Shown: one piece after another, positions 46,216 to 60,086 of the stretch
How the letters are laid out: every line of letters starts with the position of its first letter
How positions within the stretch are numbered: position 1 is the first letter of the stretch
Assembly (NCBI RefSeq): GCF_000507245.1
Contig: NC_023035.1
Span: 3,081,570 to 3,145,569, forward strand
DNA length: 64,000 nucleotides
Direction of reading: 5' to 3'
Origin: Salinispira pacifica
GTDB lineage: Bacteria > Spirochaetota > Spirochaetia > DSM-27196 > Salinispiraceae
Notes under the pieces: model-generated
The model's input: only the letters and a program-made list of their open reading frames with translations
Database searches by the model: none
What the model was told of the DNA's origin: nothing
Program-made: the position numbers and the translations under genes

Positions 46216-47241
46216 ATGACCAGGGAACTGTATACCGCCCGCCTGAATATCATACAGGGAATCAGAGAATTCTTCAGCAACCGGGAATATCTTGAAGTTC
46301 ACACTCCGCTGATGGCGGAATACTGTATTCCCGAATCCACCATCCCCCTTTTTCACACCCGTCAATATCACCCCTGGGAAGATGGAACAAACCTTCAGCT
46401 ATTGCCCTCCCCTGAGTATTACATGAAACAACTGCTTGCTTCAGGGTGGGGAGATATGTTTCAGATTTCCGGCAGTTTCAGAAACGGAGAAACCGGCGGC
46501 AGCATCCACCTGAGAGAATTCACCATGCTGGAATACTACGCCGTTCATACCGATTATATGGGAAGCATGGGGATTACTCAGGATTTCATCCGTTACCTTC
46601 TCACACTCCCCGGTACCGCACCACCCGTCAGGGAGCGCTGGAAAAATATTCCCTTCCGCCGCATCTCCATGCAGGAGGCGTTCCTTCAACATGCCGCGGT
46701 CGATCTGGAAGGGATCCTCACTCCGGGTTCGCAACCGCATCCCGCAGACCGGGAAGCTCTATTCCATATATGCCGGGAGAAGGATCTAAAGCCGGAAACA
46801 ACCGATAGCTGGGAGGTTCTGTTTAACCGCATATTTCTCAATCTGGTGGAACCCGAACTCTGCCGGGATCCTTCCCCGGTTTTTCTGTACAATTATCCTG
46901 CAAAACTATCAAGTCTGTCCCGGCTCACCGCAGACGGTCTCTGGAACGAACGATGGGAGCTGTATTGGCAGGGAGTGGAACTTGCCAACTGTTTCAGTGA
47001 AGAAAACAATCAGGAAAATATCGAAGCGTTTTTCCGTAACGAGATCCGGGAAATAGAACTCCGGAACCGGGAAGCACAGCAGGACGGCGGGGATTTCAAC
47101 CCGCCGACCCGGGCGGACCGGGAGTTCAGCCGCAAAATTGCCGGTCTGCCGCCCTGCAGCGGCACAGCCATGGGCGTGGACAGGCTGCTGATGATACTGC
47201 TGGGAAAGAACAGCATCCGGGATGTGGTTCCGTTTTCCTGA
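46216..47241 (+). CDS. epmA: EF-P--(R)-beta-lysine ligase (LysRS-like)
   Basis: A 341-residue class II synthetase-like catalytic domain without the tRNA-binding N-terminal domain of LysRS. Motif 2 appears as MFQISGSFRNGETGGSIHLREFTMLEYY and motif 3 as GLPPCSGTAMGVDRLLMILLG. Size and content match EpmA/PoxA/GenX, which attaches beta-lysine to EF-P. The target efp is in this window 2.8 kb away on the same strand. The mutase EpmB that makes beta-lysine is not in the window. The ATG at 46216 has no ribosome site at the proper distance. Confidence 0.9.
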   Translation: MTRELYTARLNIIQGIREFFSNREYLEVHTPLMAEYCIPESTIPLFHTRQYHPWEDGTNLQLLPSPEYYMKQLLASGWGDMFQISGSFRNGETGGSIHLREFTMLEYYAVHTDYMGSMGITQDFIRYLLTLPGTAPPVRERWKNIPFRRISMQEAFLQHAAVDLEGILTPGSQPHPADREALFHICREKDLKPETTDSWEVLFNRIFLNLVEPELCRDPSPVFLYNYPAKLSSLSRLTADGLWNERWELYWQGVELANCFSEENNQENIEAFFRNEIREIELRNREAQQDGGDFNPPTRADREFSRKIAGLPPCSGTAMGVDRLLMILLGKNSIRDVVPFS

Positions 47242-50035: not shown

Positions 50036-50599
50036 ATGATAAAAGCAGGCCAAGTAGCCAAGGGAATGTGTCTGATAATGAAAAACGCTCCCCATCTTGT
50101 AGTGGAGCGGGAATTTGTAAATCCCGGAAAGGGAAGCGCATTCGTACGGCTGAAGTTGAAGAATCTGGTGACAGGATCGTCACTGAAAGAAACAATTAAA
50201 TCAAACGATAATGTGGAAGAAGCAGATGTGTACGAAAAGAGCAGTCAGTTTCTCTACGCCGACCCGGAAGGGTATCATTTCATGGATGCGGAAACCTATG
50301 ATCAGTTCCTGGTTCCCACCGAGGGGCTGGAAGACAAGGGCCTGTACATGAAGGAAGGAGATACATACCGCATAGTCTTCTTCGATGAAAAGGCAATCGA
50401 CATCGTTCTTCCAACCAAACTGGTATTTGTGGTTACTGAAGCCCCTGAGGCGATCAAAGGCGATACGGTGAACGGCGCAACCAAGGTGGTAACCTGTGAA
50501 ACCGGCCTGACGGTAAAAGTACCCATCTTCATCAAGCAGGATGAAAAGATTCTGGTGAACACCGAGACCGGTGAGTACGTTGAACGGGTTAACAAGTAA
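50036..50599 (+). CDS. efp: Elongation factor P
   Basis: A 187-residue three-domain EF-P that relieves ribosome stalling at polyproline. The modification loop reads FVNPGKGSAF, with K32 the equivalent of E. coli Lys34, so it can be the substrate of EpmA encoded nearby. The C-terminal signature KVPIFIKQDEKILVNTETGEYVERV is intact. A weak AGTAGG lies before the ATG. An intrinsic terminator follows about 60 nt downstream. Confidence 0.96.
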   Translation: MIKAGQVAKGMCLIMKNAPHLVVEREFVNPGKGSAFVRLKLKNLVTGSSLKETIKSNDNVEEADVYEKSSQFLYADPEGYHFMDAETYDQFLVPTEGLEDKGLYMKEGDTYRIVFFDEKAIDIVLPTKLVFVVTEAPEAIKGDTVNGATKVVTCETGLTVKVPIFIKQDEKILVNTETGEYVERVNK

Positions 50600-53089: not shown

Positions 53090-56000
53090 TCAGCTGTCAC
53101 CGGAATGGGGGAGATATACCATGGACTCGCTGCTGCGCCCTGCCAGAGCCGCCCCCAATTCATTGTCTGAACGGAAATGGCGCAGATAGCCGCTTTTTTC
53201 CGGCAGAAGGCTTTTCATTTCCCGGACTCCGGGGGTGTTTTGCAGGGTATCCAGGCGGAAAAATCCCGGCCCTTTCAGAGAAATATGAGCATAGCCCACA
53301 TTCATGGCTATGAGGTTATGCAGAAAGTGGGATCCCTGGCTGGGATCAATATCGTAGTTTTCCACAGCAAGTTCCACAAGAATTCGCGCCTTGCTGATCT
53401 CCGGCCATTGTACCGGCACTCCCAGGTACTTATCCCGGCTTCCCCAGCGTCCCGGGCCGATGAGAATATATTCTCTGTCCTCAGCTTTCATCTGTTCATT
53501 AAAGGCTGATATTTCCCCTCTGATCTCTTCGGTTTTCAGCTGATCCCACATGGAAGGATCCACCACCAGAATATCGTGAATACCCGGGAGCCGGCCGTTT
53601 CCAAGGCTCTCGTTGCTGTAAAACACGATCCGGTTCCGGTCGGCGGGAACATCTGAAGGCAGACCGTCCCCGGCCTGGACATTCAGCGGCCGGACCTGAA
53701 GCAGATAGAAGCGGGGGATGTTTCTCGGTGGTCCGGCACCGAAACTCTCCTGAACGGATTCAGGCAGGTTCTGTTCTGCTGGCCTGGACGGCCTGGGTAT
53801 TGAAGCATCATCCCCTCCAAGCCGGTTGCCCGGAGGCAGCACCACCGCAAACTCGATTTCAACATGGCCTCCCAGAGCTTTTTTCAATAATTCCATCAGG
53901 TCTTTCAGAAGTTCCGCCAGAGGAATTGCCGCATATTCAATAATTCCTCTGAAATTCACCACCTTCGGTCCGGGATGGGAGAGATCATCGGTGAGGCTGT
54001 TGTTGGTGGAATCAAATACCGCCGCAATGTGCTTCAAAGTCCGGTGTTTTACCGCATCCCGGAGAGAAAGTTTCACAAGACTCCGGGTTTCGCCTTCCAT
54101 AATGGTTTCCCTGTCACAGTCCATTTTCAGTGCATAAAACTTCGTTTGACTGTACTTAACTGCGTCTTCAAGAGGATGATATGGTACTGCCGGCCAATCC
54201 GGACAGAACCGAAAGCTTCTGTTTCCCCCTGCAACCTCATGGCCCATGCCCAGGGCCAGACTGCAGAGTTTATCGTCGGTTTTCATGGGCCCCACCGGAT
54301 AGTAATTCCAGCTTTGTCCCACCCCGGATATTTGGGGATAATAATAGTCTCCGTGCCGTTCCCCGGCCACCTCCTGAATGATAATGGCCATCTTCTCTTC
54401 TTCCGCATTGAAATGAAGGTTCTCAATATACTGTACGGCCTGTCTCAGGAACACCGAGGCGTACACCAGCTTGATTGCCAGGGTCAGCTGATCAAGCCTG
54501 GGCGAAAGGCTTTTCGAGGCATTGGGTATCATATATGTCTCGTACACTCCGCTGAAGGGCTGTGCCTGGCTGTCCTCCAGGAGACTGGAGGAGCGAACCG
54601 CCAGAGGTCTGACACTGTGCTTCAGGAATGTTTCCATCTGAACTTCAATCTCCCCGGGAAGCCGGGAGGTGGAGAAAATCATCCGGATCTCCTCATCGCT
54701 CCTGCCGGAAAGCCTGGTTCGGGATAATCCGTTCAGGTCAAGAAAGTCATCGAACACATCGGTTGCGATAATCAGGGTGCGGGGAACCGTTATTTCCATA
54801 TTGGAATACATGCTTGCCAGATCCATGGTGGAGAGCAGAGCATTCATGAAAGCAAGCCCCCTGCCCTTGCCCCCCAGACTGCCTTTTCCTATGCGGACCA
54901 CCACATCAGGTTCATCCAGAATTTCCTCACTGAAATCCACGATATTTCCCAGGTTCTGGTTTTTGCGGATGCTGATGAAGCTGTTGATGAGGAAGGATCT
55001 GATATCCTCCACCGAGGTAAAAGCGGAAGCGTGTTTACCCCGCATTTTCCGTCCGGTTTCAAACTCGCCGTGGGCCATCAGCCAGGTGGAAAAATGATTC
55101 CGCCGGGCATGATACAGAATTGATTCATCAGGAATGTCCCTGATGATTCTGGAAAAATCCTTCAGGTTGGATGCCCTTTGAATCTCCGTTTCCTCTTCAG
55201 TTCGAAAAATAAAATCCCCGAACCCCAGGTTAAAGCGGAGAAAGTGCCGCAGCTCCTCCCGTATCCCGGGATCCTTCTTGCATATAAACGGAATATCCCG
55301 GCGGTGGGCTTCGGTCTTCCACTGACCTTTCATGGACTGGAGAAGAACGGGCATATACTGATCTTCCCTGCGGATTTCATCCGCAAGATTGAACCCCGCC
55401 TCCTCGTCTGTTGTGCCGTGAACCGGGAATTCCACATCGCTGATCACTCCCAGCATGCTTTTTTTGAACGTCCGGTAGATGCTCATGGCTTCTTCGTAGG
55501 TTCGTGCGATGAGAATTTTGGGCCTGGTCCGCATACGGAGATATTTCTTGTGATTATTCTGCTCATGGGCAATCAAGGCCTGGATCTGCTCCATCAGCTC
55601 TGTGTACAGCATGGGCAGGAAAATGGAACTGTATTCTATGGAGTCATCCACGAAGAGAAGGACACGCACCAGCCCCTGCCGGATATCGTTGCGCACATTA
55701 TAATAATCCTCCACGGATTTGATGATGGACAAAAAGACCCTGGGACCGCCGGTCCACAGAAATATCTCATCAAACACTCCGCTCCAGGTTTTCCACTCCT
55801 CGCCGCTGGAGGAAACAATGCTTCCCGGGGCAGGGGCAGGACGGGTGATCAGGTCTTTAATCAGGGGTATCTCGGTCTTGTTGGTAAGGAGCAGCACCAC
55901 GGGCATGTTGGGATACAATTCCCGGATCCGTTCAGCAAGCTCGAAGCAGCTCGTCTCGCCGCTGCGCATGGTGGTGATAACGATATCAAAATTTTCCTTC

Positions 56001-56245
56001 TCCAGAAGGCGCAGAGCATCGTCGGCGCCGGGTACGGATATCATCCTTGGAATGCTTGTGAGGTTGAGCTGATGATACTCCCCCACCAGCTGGTCGGAGA
56101 GAAGAGAATCGTGCTCAAAAATGTACGCATCGTAAAAGGTGGACACCAGGAGAATCCGGCGTATCCGGAAACGCATCAGGTTGTGAAAATTATCTTCGCC
56201 GAACTTGAATTTCCGGTAGTAGAAGGACAGATCCTTGAATTTCAT
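53090..56245 (-). CDS. Large PEP/pyruvate-binding (PPDK_N) domain protein with receiver-like N-terminus
   Basis: A 1051-residue protein. Residues about 30-135 resemble a receiver domain (RRILLVSTFYDAYIFEHD..., NFDIVITTMRSGE, PVVLLLTN). A second receiver-like stretch follows at about 190-330 (VRVLLFVDDSIEYSS, VISDVEFP). From about 455 comes the PPDK N-terminal ATP-grasp domain: IGKGSLGGKGRGLAFM and RPLAVRSSSLLEDSQAQPFSG. The end carries YILIGPGRWGSRDKYLG. No phosphohistidine swivel domain (TSH motif) or PEP-binding barrel is present, so it is not a working PEP synthase. Related proteins are annotated only as 'PEP/pyruvate-binding domain'; function unknown. It may act as a signalling phosphotransferase. 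Confidence 0.85.
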   Translation of the reverse strand: MKFKDLSFYYRKFKFGEDNFHNLMRFRIRRILLVSTFYDAYIFEHDSLLSDQLVGEYHQLNLTSIPRMISVPGADDALRLLEKENFDIVITTMRSGETSCFELAERIRELYPNMPVVLLLTNKTEIPLIKDLITRPAPAPGSIVSSSGEEWKTWSGVFDEIFLWTGGPRVFLSIIKSVEDYYNVRNDIRQGLVRVLLFVDDSIEYSSIFLPMLYTELMEQIQALIAHEQNNHKKYLRMRTRPKILIARTYEEAMSIYRTFKKSMLGVISDVEFPVHGTTDEEAGFNLADEIRREDQYMPVLLQSMKGQWKTEAHRRDIPFICKKDPGIREELRHFLRFNLGFGDFIFRTEEETEIQRASNLKDFSRIIRDIPDESILYHARRNHFSTWLMAHGEFETGRKMRGKHASAFTSVEDIRSFLINSFISIRKNQNLGNIVDFSEEILDEPDVVVRIGKGSLGGKGRGLAFMNALLSTMDLASMYSNMEITVPRTLIIATDVFDDFLDLNGLSRTRLSGRSDEEIRMIFSTSRLPGEIEVQMETFLKHSVRPLAVRSSSLLEDSQAQPFSGVYETYMIPNASKSLSPRLDQLTLAIKLVYASVFLRQAVQYIENLHFNAEEEKMAIIIQEVAGERHGDYYYPQISGVGQSWNYYPVGPMKTDDKLCSLALGMGHEVAGGNRSFRFCPDWPAVPYHPLEDAVKYSQTKFYALKMDCDRETIMEGETRSLVKLSLRDAVKHRTLKHIAAVFDSTNNSLTDDLSHPGPKVVNFRGIIEYAAIPLAELLKDLMELLKKALGGHVEIEFAVVLPPGNRLGGDDASIPRPSRPAEQNLPESVQESFGAGPPRNIPRFYLLQVRPLNVQAGDGLPSDVPADRNRIVFYSNESLGNGRLPGIHDILVVDPSMWDQLKTEEIRGEISAFNEQMKAEDREYILIGPGRWGSRDKYLGVPVQWPEISKARILVELAVENYDIDPSQGSHFLHNLIAMNVGYAHISLKGPGFFRLDTLQNTPGVREMKSLLPEKSGYLRHFRSDNELGAALAGRSSESMVYLPHSGDS

Positions 56246-57650: not shown

Positions 57651-59102
57651 TCAGGACCGGGCATATTTCATGAGCGATTCCAGTTCATCTTCCTGAATAA
57701 GGCCTTTACGCACACAGTGGGGGAGAAATTCATCCAGACGGGCAAAACTGCGCAGATCAATTCCCGCAGCAGTCATGTCCTTGCGTCCCCTCTCGCCCCG
57801 CTCGATTAAAACTGCGAGATGTTCCACTTTCAGGCCTGCTTCCTTGAGAATATCCAGTGCTTCAATTTTACTGGTCCCCCTGGTAATCAGATCATCCAGC
57901 AGAAGCACTTTCTCCCCGGACTTCCAGTTTCCCTCCACGGTATTTCCAGTACCATGAGATTTGGCATTCATTCTGGGGAATATCATGGGGATGCCTGTTT
58001 CCATGCTCACTGCCGTCGCCAGTGGCAGTGCCGCCACGGGAATACCGGCAATATGGTCAAAGTCTTTTCCTTCCCGCCGGAGCTCATGGATCAGCCGGGC
58101 ATATGCTCGTGCCACATCCTTCAGAAGGCTGGGATACGACATCACCCGGCGCAGGTCGATGTAGAACGGCGAACGTTCCCCGGACTTCAGAGTGAACTCA
58201 CCTGTTTTGAAGCAGCGGGCATCGATAAGACCTGACAGCACTCTGTCCTTCAGCAAATCTCCGGGAGAACCGGCATGACCTGCCCCTTCGTTCTTCCTTT
58301 TTGCAAGCACTTTTTCTACGGCTTCGTTCAGTTCAGATACCAGAGCGGCGGCAGCTGCTTCGGGGTCCTCGGCCTGGGAAATTCCCCGTGCCACCACAGG
58401 GATAATGCCCGTCCCCCGGGAGTTCACCCCCGCTTCCACGGCCTCCAGCATGCTCCCGCCCTGAGCGCCGATTCCCGGACTGAGAAACCACATCTCAGGA
58501 TGCCGGGCTCTGATTGCCCGCAAGGCGTCCAGATCATTACCCGCTACAACCAATCCCACATTCTGCCCCCAGGATCCGGCTATTTCCGCAACCCGTACAT
58601 AGAGGGGCTCGCCGTCATTCTGGCTCAGAAGCTGAAGGTCGCCGCTTCCCGGATTACTGGTTTTACACAGGATAAAGGCGGCAGTTTTACTGTGATTGAT
58701 AAACGGCTCCACCGAATCGCGGCCCATGTAGGGACTTAAGGTAACTGCATCGGCATTCAGATGACCGAACACCGCACGCTCGTACGCAAGGGCGGTCGCC
58801 CCGATATCACCCCGTTTAGCATCAAGAATTACGGGAATTTCATCGGGAATCAGTTCCAGGGTGATCTCCAGTGCCTGCAGTCCCGGAGCGCCCAAGGCTT
58901 CATAAAATGCGATGTTGGGCTTGTAGGCAAGGGCGTAGCTGCTTGTGGCCTGAATTATCCGCTTGTTCTCTTCGATCATGCCTGACACACTGTCGGCAGC
59001 GCCCATATCCGGCTGAATTGCATGCCGGGGATCCAGACCCACGCACAATAAACTGTTGATTTTCCTGCTTCGCTCTTCCAGTCTCTGAAAAAAATCGCTC
59101 AT
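57651..59102 (-). CDS. pyrFE: Bifunctional orotidine-5'-phosphate decarboxylase / orotate phosphoribosyltransferase
   Basis: A 483-residue fusion. Residues 1-280 are an OMP decarboxylase with the catalytic Lys/Asp cluster DAKRGDIG (94-101) and KPNIAFYEALG. A basic linker (AKRKNEGAGHAGSPGDL) leads to OPRT (about 295-483) with the PRPP motif VLLLDDLITRGTSKIEAL. It catalyses the last two steps of UMP synthesis. The order is decarboxylase-first, the reverse of animal UMP synthase. The -10-like TACATT lies 6 nt before the ATG, with GAGGAA also 12 nt upstream, so a leaderless or short-leader mRNA is possible. Confidence 0.93.
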   Translation of the reverse strand: MSDFFQRLEERSRKINSLLCVGLDPRHAIQPDMGAADSVSGMIEENKRIIQATSSYALAYKPNIAFYEALGAPGLQALEITLELIPDEIPVILDAKRGDIGATALAYERAVFGHLNADAVTLSPYMGRDSVEPFINHSKTAAFILCKTSNPGSGDLQLLSQNDGEPLYVRVAEIAGSWGQNVGLVVAGNDLDALRAIRARHPEMWFLSPGIGAQGGSMLEAVEAGVNSRGTGIIPVVARGISQAEDPEAAAAALVSELNEAVEKVLAKRKNEGAGHAGSPGDLLKDRVLSGLIDARCFKTGEFTLKSGERSPFYIDLRRVMSYPSLLKDVARAYARLIHELRREGKDFDHIAGIPVAALPLATAVSMETGIPMIFPRMNAKSHGTGNTVEGNWKSGEKVLLLDDLITRGTSKIEALDILKEAGLKVEHLAVLIERGERGRKDMTAAGIDLRSFARLDEFLPHCVRKGLIQEDELESLMKYARS

Positions 59103-59273: not shown

Positions 59274-59313
59274 GCTGATAACCGTCGCCGGATGCTGATA
59301 ACCGTCACCGGAT
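59274..59313. repeat. 20-bp tandem duplication upstream of cobB
   Basis: 59274-59293 and 59294-59313 are copies of the same 20 bp (GCTGATAACCGTCGCCGGAT) with one substitution. The second copy abuts the AGGAGG ribosome site of the sirtuin gene. Confidence 0.85.
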
Positions 59314-59324
59314 TAGGAGGGAAT

Positions 59325-60086
59325 ATGCCTGACAGTCCTATTCACAAAGCCATGGAACGAATTGCCGGGGCCCAATACCTTACCGCATTTACCGGCGCCG
59401 GAATATCCGTGGAAAGCGGTGTTCCCCCTTTCAGAGGTGAGCATGGAATCTGGAACCAATACGATCCCCGGATTCTTGAGCTCGATTACTTCTACCGGAA
59501 CCCCGGAGAATGCTGGACGGTAATCAGGGATCTGTTTTACCGGAACTTTGCAGCCAGTAAACCCAACGACGCCCACTACTGGCTGGCAGAATTGGAAAAC
59601 CGCGGCAAACTCAAACTTCTGATTACCCAGAATATCGATGATCTGCATTACCGGGCGGGAAGCAGAAATGTGGTTGAATACCACGGCAACTGCCGCCGGC
59701 TTCTGTGTACCCGCAGCGGAAACTATGTCCCGGCAGAGAGCATCAACCTGCTGGAAATGAAAGATGATGAGATGCCGCCCCGAAGTCCGGCCGGAGGAGT
59801 TTATAAACCGGATTTTATCTTTTTCGGAGAAGGAATTCCCCGGGAAGCCCAAAAGCGCAGCCTGGATGCAGTAGACCGCAGCGATGTGATGATAGTGATC
59901 GGCTCCACCGGGGAAGTGTATCCTGCGGCTTCAATTCCGTTGATGGCAAGCCGCCGGGGTGCGGTAATAATCGAGATCAATCCCCAGCCCTCCGCATTCA
60001 CCTCCGAAATAACCGATATTCATCTTCAGATGACAGCCGGTGATGCAGCCAGGCAGCTTCAGGAGATCCTGGATGATGCAGTGTAG
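59325..60086 (+). CDS. cobB: Sirtuin NAD-dependent protein deacylase lacking the usual zinc cysteines
   Basis: About 253 residues. NAD-site motifs are FTGAGISVESGVPPFRG (GAGIS 24-28), TQNIDDLHYRAGSRNV and the catalytic His in EYHGNC; later IFFGEGIP and IGSTGEVYPA. The zinc module is degenerate: one Cys occurs at NC and one at LLC, but the second CxxC pair before the YKPDFIFFGE strand is replaced by PPRSPAGG. It removes acyl groups from lysines if active. The start is the ATG at 59325, with AGGAGG ideally placed. Confidence 0.88.
   Translation: MPDSPIHKAMERIAGAQYLTAFTGAGISVESGVPPFRGEHGIWNQYDPRILELDYFYRNPGECWTVIRDLFYRNFAASKPNDAHYWLAELENRGKLKLLITQNIDDLHYRAGSRNVVEYHGNCRRLLCTRSGNYVPAESINLLEMKDDEMPPRSPAGGVYKPDFIFFGEGIPREAQKRSLDAVDRSDVMIVIGSTGEVYPAASIPLMASRRGAVIIEINPQPSAFTSEITDIHLQMTAGDAARQLQEILDDAV

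Follow-up and report, generated by a model that had tools for sequence, protein, structure and literature searches.

In a 64,000-nucleotide stretch of the Salinispira pacifica genome (hereafter the window), an open reading frame (ORF) on the minus strand runs from an ATG start at position 56245 down to position 53090 and encodes a protein of 1051 amino acids (aa), here called P0001. The preliminary description of this DNA had placed the ORF at exactly these positions. At E <= 0.001 the 3.78-Mb genome contains a single match, so the gene is present in one copy. P0001 shares 34-50% identity with 19 aligned full-length relatives (alignment A1), with conservation along the entire length, and further full-length homologues are present in numerous other genomes; the ORF is therefore not a chance one. 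The gene, its parts and the adjacent glutamate dehydrogenase (GDH) gene are as follows.

53090..56245, minus strand: P0001, GDH-linked putative signalling protein resembling pyruvate phosphate dikinase (PPDK); whole gene, 1051 aa plus stop, recognised by its open frame and full-length homologues
55703..56167, minus strand: pseudo-receiver, residues 27-181; predicted receiver fold with T91 at the Asp site, no phospho-acceptor
55220..55669, minus strand: second receiver (predicted), residues 193-342; acidic pair D200/D201, phospho-acceptor D270, S304, K323
54956..55213, minus strand: DUF5752-like linker, residues 345-430; PF19027, sub-threshold
53681..54937, minus strand: PPDK-type ATP-grasp, residues 437-855; K460, R551, E796, E798, Q850, R852
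53729..53815, minus strand: low-confidence insertion, residues 811-839; absent from the 19 relatives of A1, predicted local distance difference test (pLDDT) below 50
53102..53644, minus strand: C-terminal domain, residues 868-1048; probably a diverged phosphohistidine (swivel) domain, in which R933 and H973 are invariant
53327-53329, minus strand: H973 codon
51498..52841, minus strand: GDH, 447 aa, 248 bp downstream of P0001; PF00208 (E 4e-84) and PF02812

P0001 belongs to a real gene family that is widely conserved in many bacteria and some archaea. A scan of named loci, covering the best 80 of at least 581 candidate relatives, returned labels of Spirochaetota, Cloacimonadota, Bacteroidota, Chlorobiota/Ignavibacteria, Acidobacteriota, Gemmatimonadota, Myxococcota and several archaeal groups. 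The family is matched at E <= 1e-30 in 172 of 198 genomes sampled from the order of Mariniphaga anaerophila, which we take to be Bacteroidales in GTDB. The relatives fall into a long form, to which P0001 belongs, and a short form with the same ATP-grasp and C-terminal domains, a different N-terminus and ~26-36% identity in matched stretches. Counts for the long form refer to alignment A2, in which P0001 and 66 of 67 diverse relatives (L080 was left out) make up 67 sequences; those for the short form refer to 37 distinct sequences whose ORFs were picked by phmmer alone. The structure of P0001 was predicted from A2 with a mean pLDDT of 85.6 and a predicted template-modelling score (pTM) of 0.78. 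The family is apparently uncharacterised, as we found nothing on it in the open-licence literature, nor any paper there joining PPDK_N, or 'pyruvate-binding domain-containing', with GDH; the gene of Parabacteroides distasonis is annotated as 'PEP/pyruvate-binding domain-containing protein'.

The ATP-grasp core and the C-terminal domain

The ATP-grasp motifs of PPDK are kept in P0001, as the preliminary description had claimed. PF01326 (PPDK_N) matches residues 456-802 with 116.8 bits (E 1.6e-33; curated cut-off 27), and the motifs GGKG, VRS, acid-x-E-F and Q-T/S-R occur in the order found in all 16 PPDKs taken from the same genome and its relatives. K460, R551, E796-x-E798 and Q850-x-R852 correspond to the ATP-site residues of PPDK. 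K460, R551, E798 and Q850 are present in 67/67 long forms and, wherever the sequence extends that far, in the short forms as well (36-37 of 37), and position 796 is invariably acidic across both subfamilies; R852 is replaced by Lys in 28 of the 67 long forms. In VIA structure comparisons, residues 437-855 of the model resemble rifampin phosphotransferase (RPH; 5hv1, Z 26.4), and the model also matches phosphoenolpyruvate (PEP) synthase (2ols, Z 26.1) and PPDK (1dik, Z 18.8). The PEP synthase alignment spans model residues 437-1047 on chain residues 4-467 and that of PPDK 437-1046 on 2-510, so that both extend across the ATP-grasp and the C-terminal domain. An hhalign comparison of the core with PPDK was poor (9%). 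Judged by profile and ATP-site residues, P0001 is assigned to the PPDK_N ATP-grasp proteins.

The PEP/pyruvate-binding barrel is absent, as previously described: none was seen in Pfam or in the secondary structure of the model, and the protein stops at residue 1051, after the C-terminal domain. With neither a barrel nor a match to the PF00391 profile, P0001 is not a member of PPDK or PEP synthase. It has in common with these enzymes an ATP-grasp followed by a His-bearing domain, with similar motif order and Gln-His spacing, but differs from them in lacking a recognisable PF00391 motif and the barrel, in an extra GPGRWGS block and in the receivers placed in front. Partial matches to the NCBIfam PEP synthase and PigC models, far below their cut-offs, would suit an ordinary paralogue of PPDK or PEP synthase whose C-terminus has degenerated and which takes no part in regulation. 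This is very improbable, however, given the missing barrel and the conserved non-PPDK domains flanking the ATP-grasp on both sides; in addition, PF00391 is found at four other places in the same genome, the P0001 gene not being one of them.

The preliminary description had also listed the phosphohistidine swivel among the missing parts, which we doubt. The C-terminal domain is probably a strongly diverged swivel domain that is unrecognisable by sequence, because its predicted fold, its position and an invariant His agree, although single Z values are weak. The GPGRWGS...LG block, rightly pointed out before as distinctive, is present with its core invariant among relatives. H973 was found in 67/67 long forms and in all 34 short forms reaching it (101/101 together), the ORFs of the short forms L019, L023 and L025 being short or cut and without letters at this position. 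R933, E958 and G971 are likewise invariant in the 67 long forms and in every short form reaching them (34-36 of 37). When folded alone, the domain was predicted with a pLDDT of 92.6 and a pTM of 0.90, and H973 begins a helix in both this and the full model; the catalytic His of PPDK also opens a helix. Eight of the ten top VIA rows for the domain were PPDK central domains or the extra C-terminal domain of Staphylococcus aureus pyruvate kinase, which is PEP-utiliser-like. The latter gave Z 6.2, and seven PPDK entries gave weak matches of Z 5.3-6.0 (chain residues ~386-515, 103-114 residues aligned, root-mean-square deviation (rmsd) 2.8-3.6), followed lower down by EI-Ntr (Z 5.1) and the His domain of RPH (Z 5.0). 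The spacing between Q850 and H973 is 123 in 61/67 long forms (range 121-125), compared with 120-121 in 16/16 PPDKs.

Several observations weigh against the swivel assignment. The Z values of 5-6 lie below 8, the level under which the tool advises caution, and the same list contains chaperonin apical domains (5.1-5.7, two of them in the top ten with 5.7 and 5.4) and two unrelated hydrolase-like chains (5.0-5.2). Foldseek returned no match for the domain at E <= 0.001, and when the C-terminal alignment was compared by hhalign with swivel sets of PtsI and of PPDK mixed with PtsI, the probability was ~0.5%. No Pfam family matched more than two of the 67 C-terminal domains at E <= 1, and PF00391 was not among the matches. 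The Gln-His spacing of the short forms is 129-143 rather than 123, as taken from a first short-form set that was picked by motif patterns including the His motif. The putative carrier role of H973 was judged from its invariance, its spacing and the secondary structure of the model. A profile search of solved-structure sequences with the domain returned chance-like matches only (best a synaptobrevin-like protein, E 0.044). On balance, we lean slightly towards H973 being the residue that carries phosphate.

RPH of Listeria (PDB 5hv1, 5fbs), whose ATP-grasp is so similar, has a separate His domain with the weak likeness to the C-terminal domain mentioned above. P0001 differs from RPH, as the His domain of the latter lies at the far C-terminus (chain residues 759-865) and a further domain holds the small drug. 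We know of no receivers in RPH and of no link between RPH and GDH.

Receivers and other N-terminal modules

Two receiver-like stretches had been reported ahead of the kinase-like part. Pfam sees the first only, and below threshold (PF00072, residues 70-131, 29.8 bits against a cut-off of 30.2), with no match of this profile on the second, whereas the predicted structure shows two receiver folds. In VIA comparisons residues 27-181 resemble the PorX receiver (Z 12.9, 119 residues, rmsd 2.3) and residues 193-342 that of ComE (Z 15.0, 125 residues, rmsd 1.8). Of the phospho-acceptor Asp that the earlier description would lead one to look for, only the second stretch offers a candidate. Position 91 in the first is Thr in P0001 and Asp in 0/67 long forms, so that this domain is classed as a receiver by its predicted fold and not by a phospho-acceptor. 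The second has the predicted fold together with the acidic pair, Asp, Ser/Thr and Lys expected of a receiver, and among the long forms D270 is kept in 65/67, Ser or Thr at position 304 in 67/67 and K323 in 66/67. The folds and the residue conservation therefore suggest that the kinase-like part is preceded by a pseudo-receiver and by a second receiver that appears to be active. With the ATP-grasp and receiver folds both present in the model, the earlier view of P0001 as a signalling protein with these parts was not refuted.

Between the receivers and the core lies a putative linker, in which PF19027 (DUF5752) scores 17.8 bits over residues 356-421 (cut-off 23) in P0001 and 30.4 bits in its relative L085. 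At E <= 1, Pfam found neither HisKA nor HATPase_c in P0001, which is thus not a classical histidine kinase. As for the relatives, one to several GAF-like repeats precede the long form in many Bacteroidota, and the N-termini of the short form are either KaiC-like without a P-loop or composed of GAF-like segments (both read by eye, with no Pfam match). The tandem-receiver response regulator PleD resembles P0001 in its two consecutive receivers, and in Foldseek the N-terminal half matched PleD structures best; the output of PleD is a diguanylate cyclase, while that of P0001 is a core resembling ATP-grasp phosphotransferases. The idea in the preliminary description that a metabolic kinase was turned into a signalling enzyme fits the receivers and the GAF-like and KaiC-like N-termini before the ATP-grasp, but the swivel is probably not lost and the MscS context treated below is not conserved.

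Several loci of Bacteroidales, Cloacimonadota and Chlorobiota carry two copies of the family gene in tandem, head to tail (L063, L064, L069, L073, L090, L097, L106 and L120). In the second copies of L063 and L069, D270 is lost, while H973 and the catalytic core are kept. These copies bear on the possibility of an internal phosphorelay, in which the ATP-grasp would phosphorylate H973 and H973 would hand the phosphate on to D270 of the protein's own receiver, much as in a hybrid histidine kinase but with an ATP-grasp as the kinase part. A complete receiver and an invariant His do coexist in one protein; still, we consider such a relay improbable, as the two tandem copies retain H973 without D270 and the short subfamily has the core and H973, with no receiver detected by Pfam in the four short forms tested.

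Separately, a cluster of 235-400 aa proteins recurs beside the GAF-type short form (L140-L142, L147 and L157), and its member in L140 had no Pfam or NCBIfam family match.

Linkage to glutamate dehydrogenase

The neighbour singled out in the preliminary description was MscS, whose gene indeed lies 60 bp upstream of the P0001 gene on the same strand. This arrangement is not conserved: nothing in 116 homologous loci matched the window's MscS at E <= 1e-10 (0/116), and MscS was rejected as a partner. The neighbour survey turned up instead the gene on the other side, GDH, which had been overlooked. By tblastn, GDH was found in 42 of the 80 named long-form loci, within 3 kb in 41 and within 1 kb in 36. 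Of the 20 short-form loci 18 have it, none of these farther away than 3 kb. Chance would yield ~0.3 linked loci at a rough rate of 0.3% per locus. The 41 linked long-form loci span about ten phylum-level labels, including Spirochaetaceae, Cloacimonadota, Bacteroidales, Ignavibacteria, Acidobacteria, Aegiribacteria, Effluviviaceae, Gemmatimonadota and three archaeal ones (Thermoplasmatota, Hodarchaeota and Euryarchaeota). A further 16 spirochaete loci were chosen partly for a nearby GDH, and their biased GDH count was not used as a rate. The link between the family and GDH genes is thus well supported.

Gene order varies from locus to locus. Adjacent pairs, counted with a simple ORF picker by which genes are at times overlooked (e.g., GDH in L154), comprise 13 in family-to-GDH order, 9 in GDH-to-family order, 12 divergent and 6 convergent for the long form including the window, and 4, 3, 2 and 3, respectively, for the short form. 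Since order varies and the linked GDHs come from distant clades, one of them a type that lies deeply apart and has members of 415-435 aa, the inheritance of a single ancient gene pair would hardly account for the pattern. In the window's phylum the family and GDH also co-occur: among 296 genomes, GDH occurs in 58 of 60 that bear the family (G098 and G242 lack it) and in 92 of 236 others (hand count; Fisher p 7e-18, ignoring shared ancestry), after 12 of 72 matching genomes were dropped for having single-domain matches only (best E above 1e-12).

There are also findings that count against a role at GDH. No GDH lies within 3 kb in 39 of the 80 named loci, some of which are on short contigs, and the excess in Bacteroidales is modest (166/172 family-bearing genomes vs 20/26 others, p 0.0016). 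Moreover, in a comparison of 70 linked with 20 unlinked GDHs no alignment column separates the two cleanly, the best difference being 0.59 at a Cys/Ala position, and we therefore propose no phosphosite in GDH.

Other metabolic genes adjoin the family. Those for a 2-oxoacid:ferredoxin oxidoreductase do so at 12 loci for the beta and 11 for the alpha subunit, nine of these oxidoreductase loci having no GDH nearby. In L072 the alpha subunit scores 651 bits against TIGR03710, above the cut-off, and the beta subunit 251 bits against TIGR02177 (cut-off 261.9); the assignment is at the level of the 2-oxoacid family and does not extend to 2-oxoglutarate as the substrate. A gltA-type NADPH-dependent glutamate synthase gene lies near the short form in 6/20 loci (the example in L144 is above the TIGR01316 cut-off). 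It is fairly likely that P0001 regulates GDH/2-oxoglutarate metabolism.

Among individual genomes, the family gene is divergent and beside gdhA in P. distasonis and lies beside GDH in Phocaeicola massiliensis, while in an oral Prevotella no GDH match was found within 9 kb on either side. In L101 and L133, GDHs of distant clades alternate with two family genes. In several Bacteroidota loci (L085, L098, L121, L122 and L137), the family gene is separated from GDH by a LuxR-type response regulator (PF00196 in L098), and the same cluster adjoins the family gene in L127 and L136. In the Mariniphaga loci L093 and L115, the family gene follows genes resembling, by eye, SerC and SerA of serine biosynthesis, with no GDH within 10 kb.

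A proposed phosphotransferase and the surrounding window

Our preferred reading, with a rough probability of 45%, is that P0001 is a PPDK-superfamily phosphotransferase which is controlled by signals and has the 2-oxoglutarate/glutamate node as its site of action. Phosphoryl transfer through phospho-His is argued from the invariance of the ATP-site set and the His, and gating by signals is suggested by the receivers and sensor-like N-termini. A histidine kinase would phosphorylate D270 of the second receiver, with the pseudo-receiver also taking part in signal input; in the relatives, the signal would enter through the GAF-like or KaiC-like N-termini. The ATP-grasp half would then bind ATP and phosphorylate H973 in the presumed divergent swivel domain. 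From there the phosphoryl group may go on to a partner outside the protein, for which the neighbouring GDH is the most likely choice, and alter the activity of that partner. In PPDK, PEP synthase and RPH the phosphate is passed to a small molecule that an additional domain binds; as the PEP/pyruvate acceptor barrel is absent from P0001, we infer a separate acceptor. GDH is the best candidate because it is the recurrent neighbour, and it may tentatively be put forward as the direct phosphoryl acceptor, with somewhat less confidence than the reading as a whole.

The same data could be explained without phosphate transfer if P0001 were an ATP-responsive allosteric or assembly partner. It would bind ATP, attach to GDH (or to the 2-oxoacid oxidoreductase) and change the activity of that enzyme through this contact, which the receivers would gate. 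Such a role would need no catalysis to account for GDH linkage in all orientations, and it fits the weak swivel match and the Lys that replaces R852 in many long forms. The GarA/OdhI-PknG system, which consists of a Ser/Thr kinase and a binding protein, has no domain in common with P0001. Binding regulators of this node do exist: in Actinobacteria, GarA/OdhI-PknG governs both 2-oxoglutarate dehydrogenase and the metabolism of glutamate (PMC12321487, PMC5448819, PMC9769921), and the system is to that extent a functional analogue at the node that we propose for P0001. Nevertheless, the invariance of K460, R551, the acid at 796, E798, Q850 and H973 in two very divergent subfamilies suggests catalysis, and the core residues are kept even in the two tandem copies that lost the receiver Asp, leaving a purely binding partner unlikely.

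Slightly less likely still is a phosphotransferase for a small molecule, i.e., an enzyme that phosphorylates a metabolite of glutamate/2-oxoglutarate metabolism in the manner of RPH or PEP synthase. The closest structural relatives of the core act on small molecules, and the recurrent neighbours are metabolic genes. On the other hand, the acceptor-binding barrel is absent, receiver and sensor-like domains in front are typical of regulators, and no user of a phosphorylated product was recognised among the recurrent neighbour clusters.

If the phosphotransferase reading is carried to its full extent, it is attractive to speculate that the family represents an undescribed class of regulatory protein phosphotransferases, in which a barrel-less PPDK ATP-grasp with a cryptic phosphohistidine domain is wired to receiver, GAF-like or KaiC-like sensors and controls GDH covalently, although in this complete form we regard the proposal as rather unlikely. 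Bacteroides fragilis GDH is reportedly inactivated reversibly in vivo (Yamamoto and colleagues, 1987), a report of which we found no mention in the open-licence literature. Were the proposal true, the P0001 family would be the missing modifier of this inactivation in B. fragilis, most Bacteroidales and many other phyla including archaea, and control would extend in some lineages to a 2-oxoacid:ferredoxin oxidoreductase. It would also show that a metabolic dikinase fold has been re-used for signalling. GDH is a main entry point of ammonia into biomass, and the breadth of the family makes the switching of GDH directly testable in culturable laboratory bacteria.

A role in anti-phage defence was rejected, as PADLOC gave no match. 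P0001 had only a weak match, in its receiver region, in PHROGs; a viral fold search matched Bacillus phage G Gp139, viral histidine kinases and one unnamed protein. Counts in a promoter and terminator scan were no different from those of shuffles.

Other ORFs in the window include a 264-aa Sir2-family ORF (PF02146) at 59292-60086 on the plus strand, two genes upstream of mscS and matched in 0/116 homologous loci. On the minus strand, a 483-aa ORF at 57651-59102 fuses PF00215 (orotidine 5'-phosphate decarboxylase) to PF00156 (phosphoribosyltransferase) and is probably a PyrF-PyrE fusion. Finally, a 341-aa ORF at 46216-47241 on the plus strand resembles class II (D, K, N) tRNA synthetases and appears EpmA/GenX-like by eye; close to it, at 50036-50599 on the same strand, lies the gene for elongation factor P.

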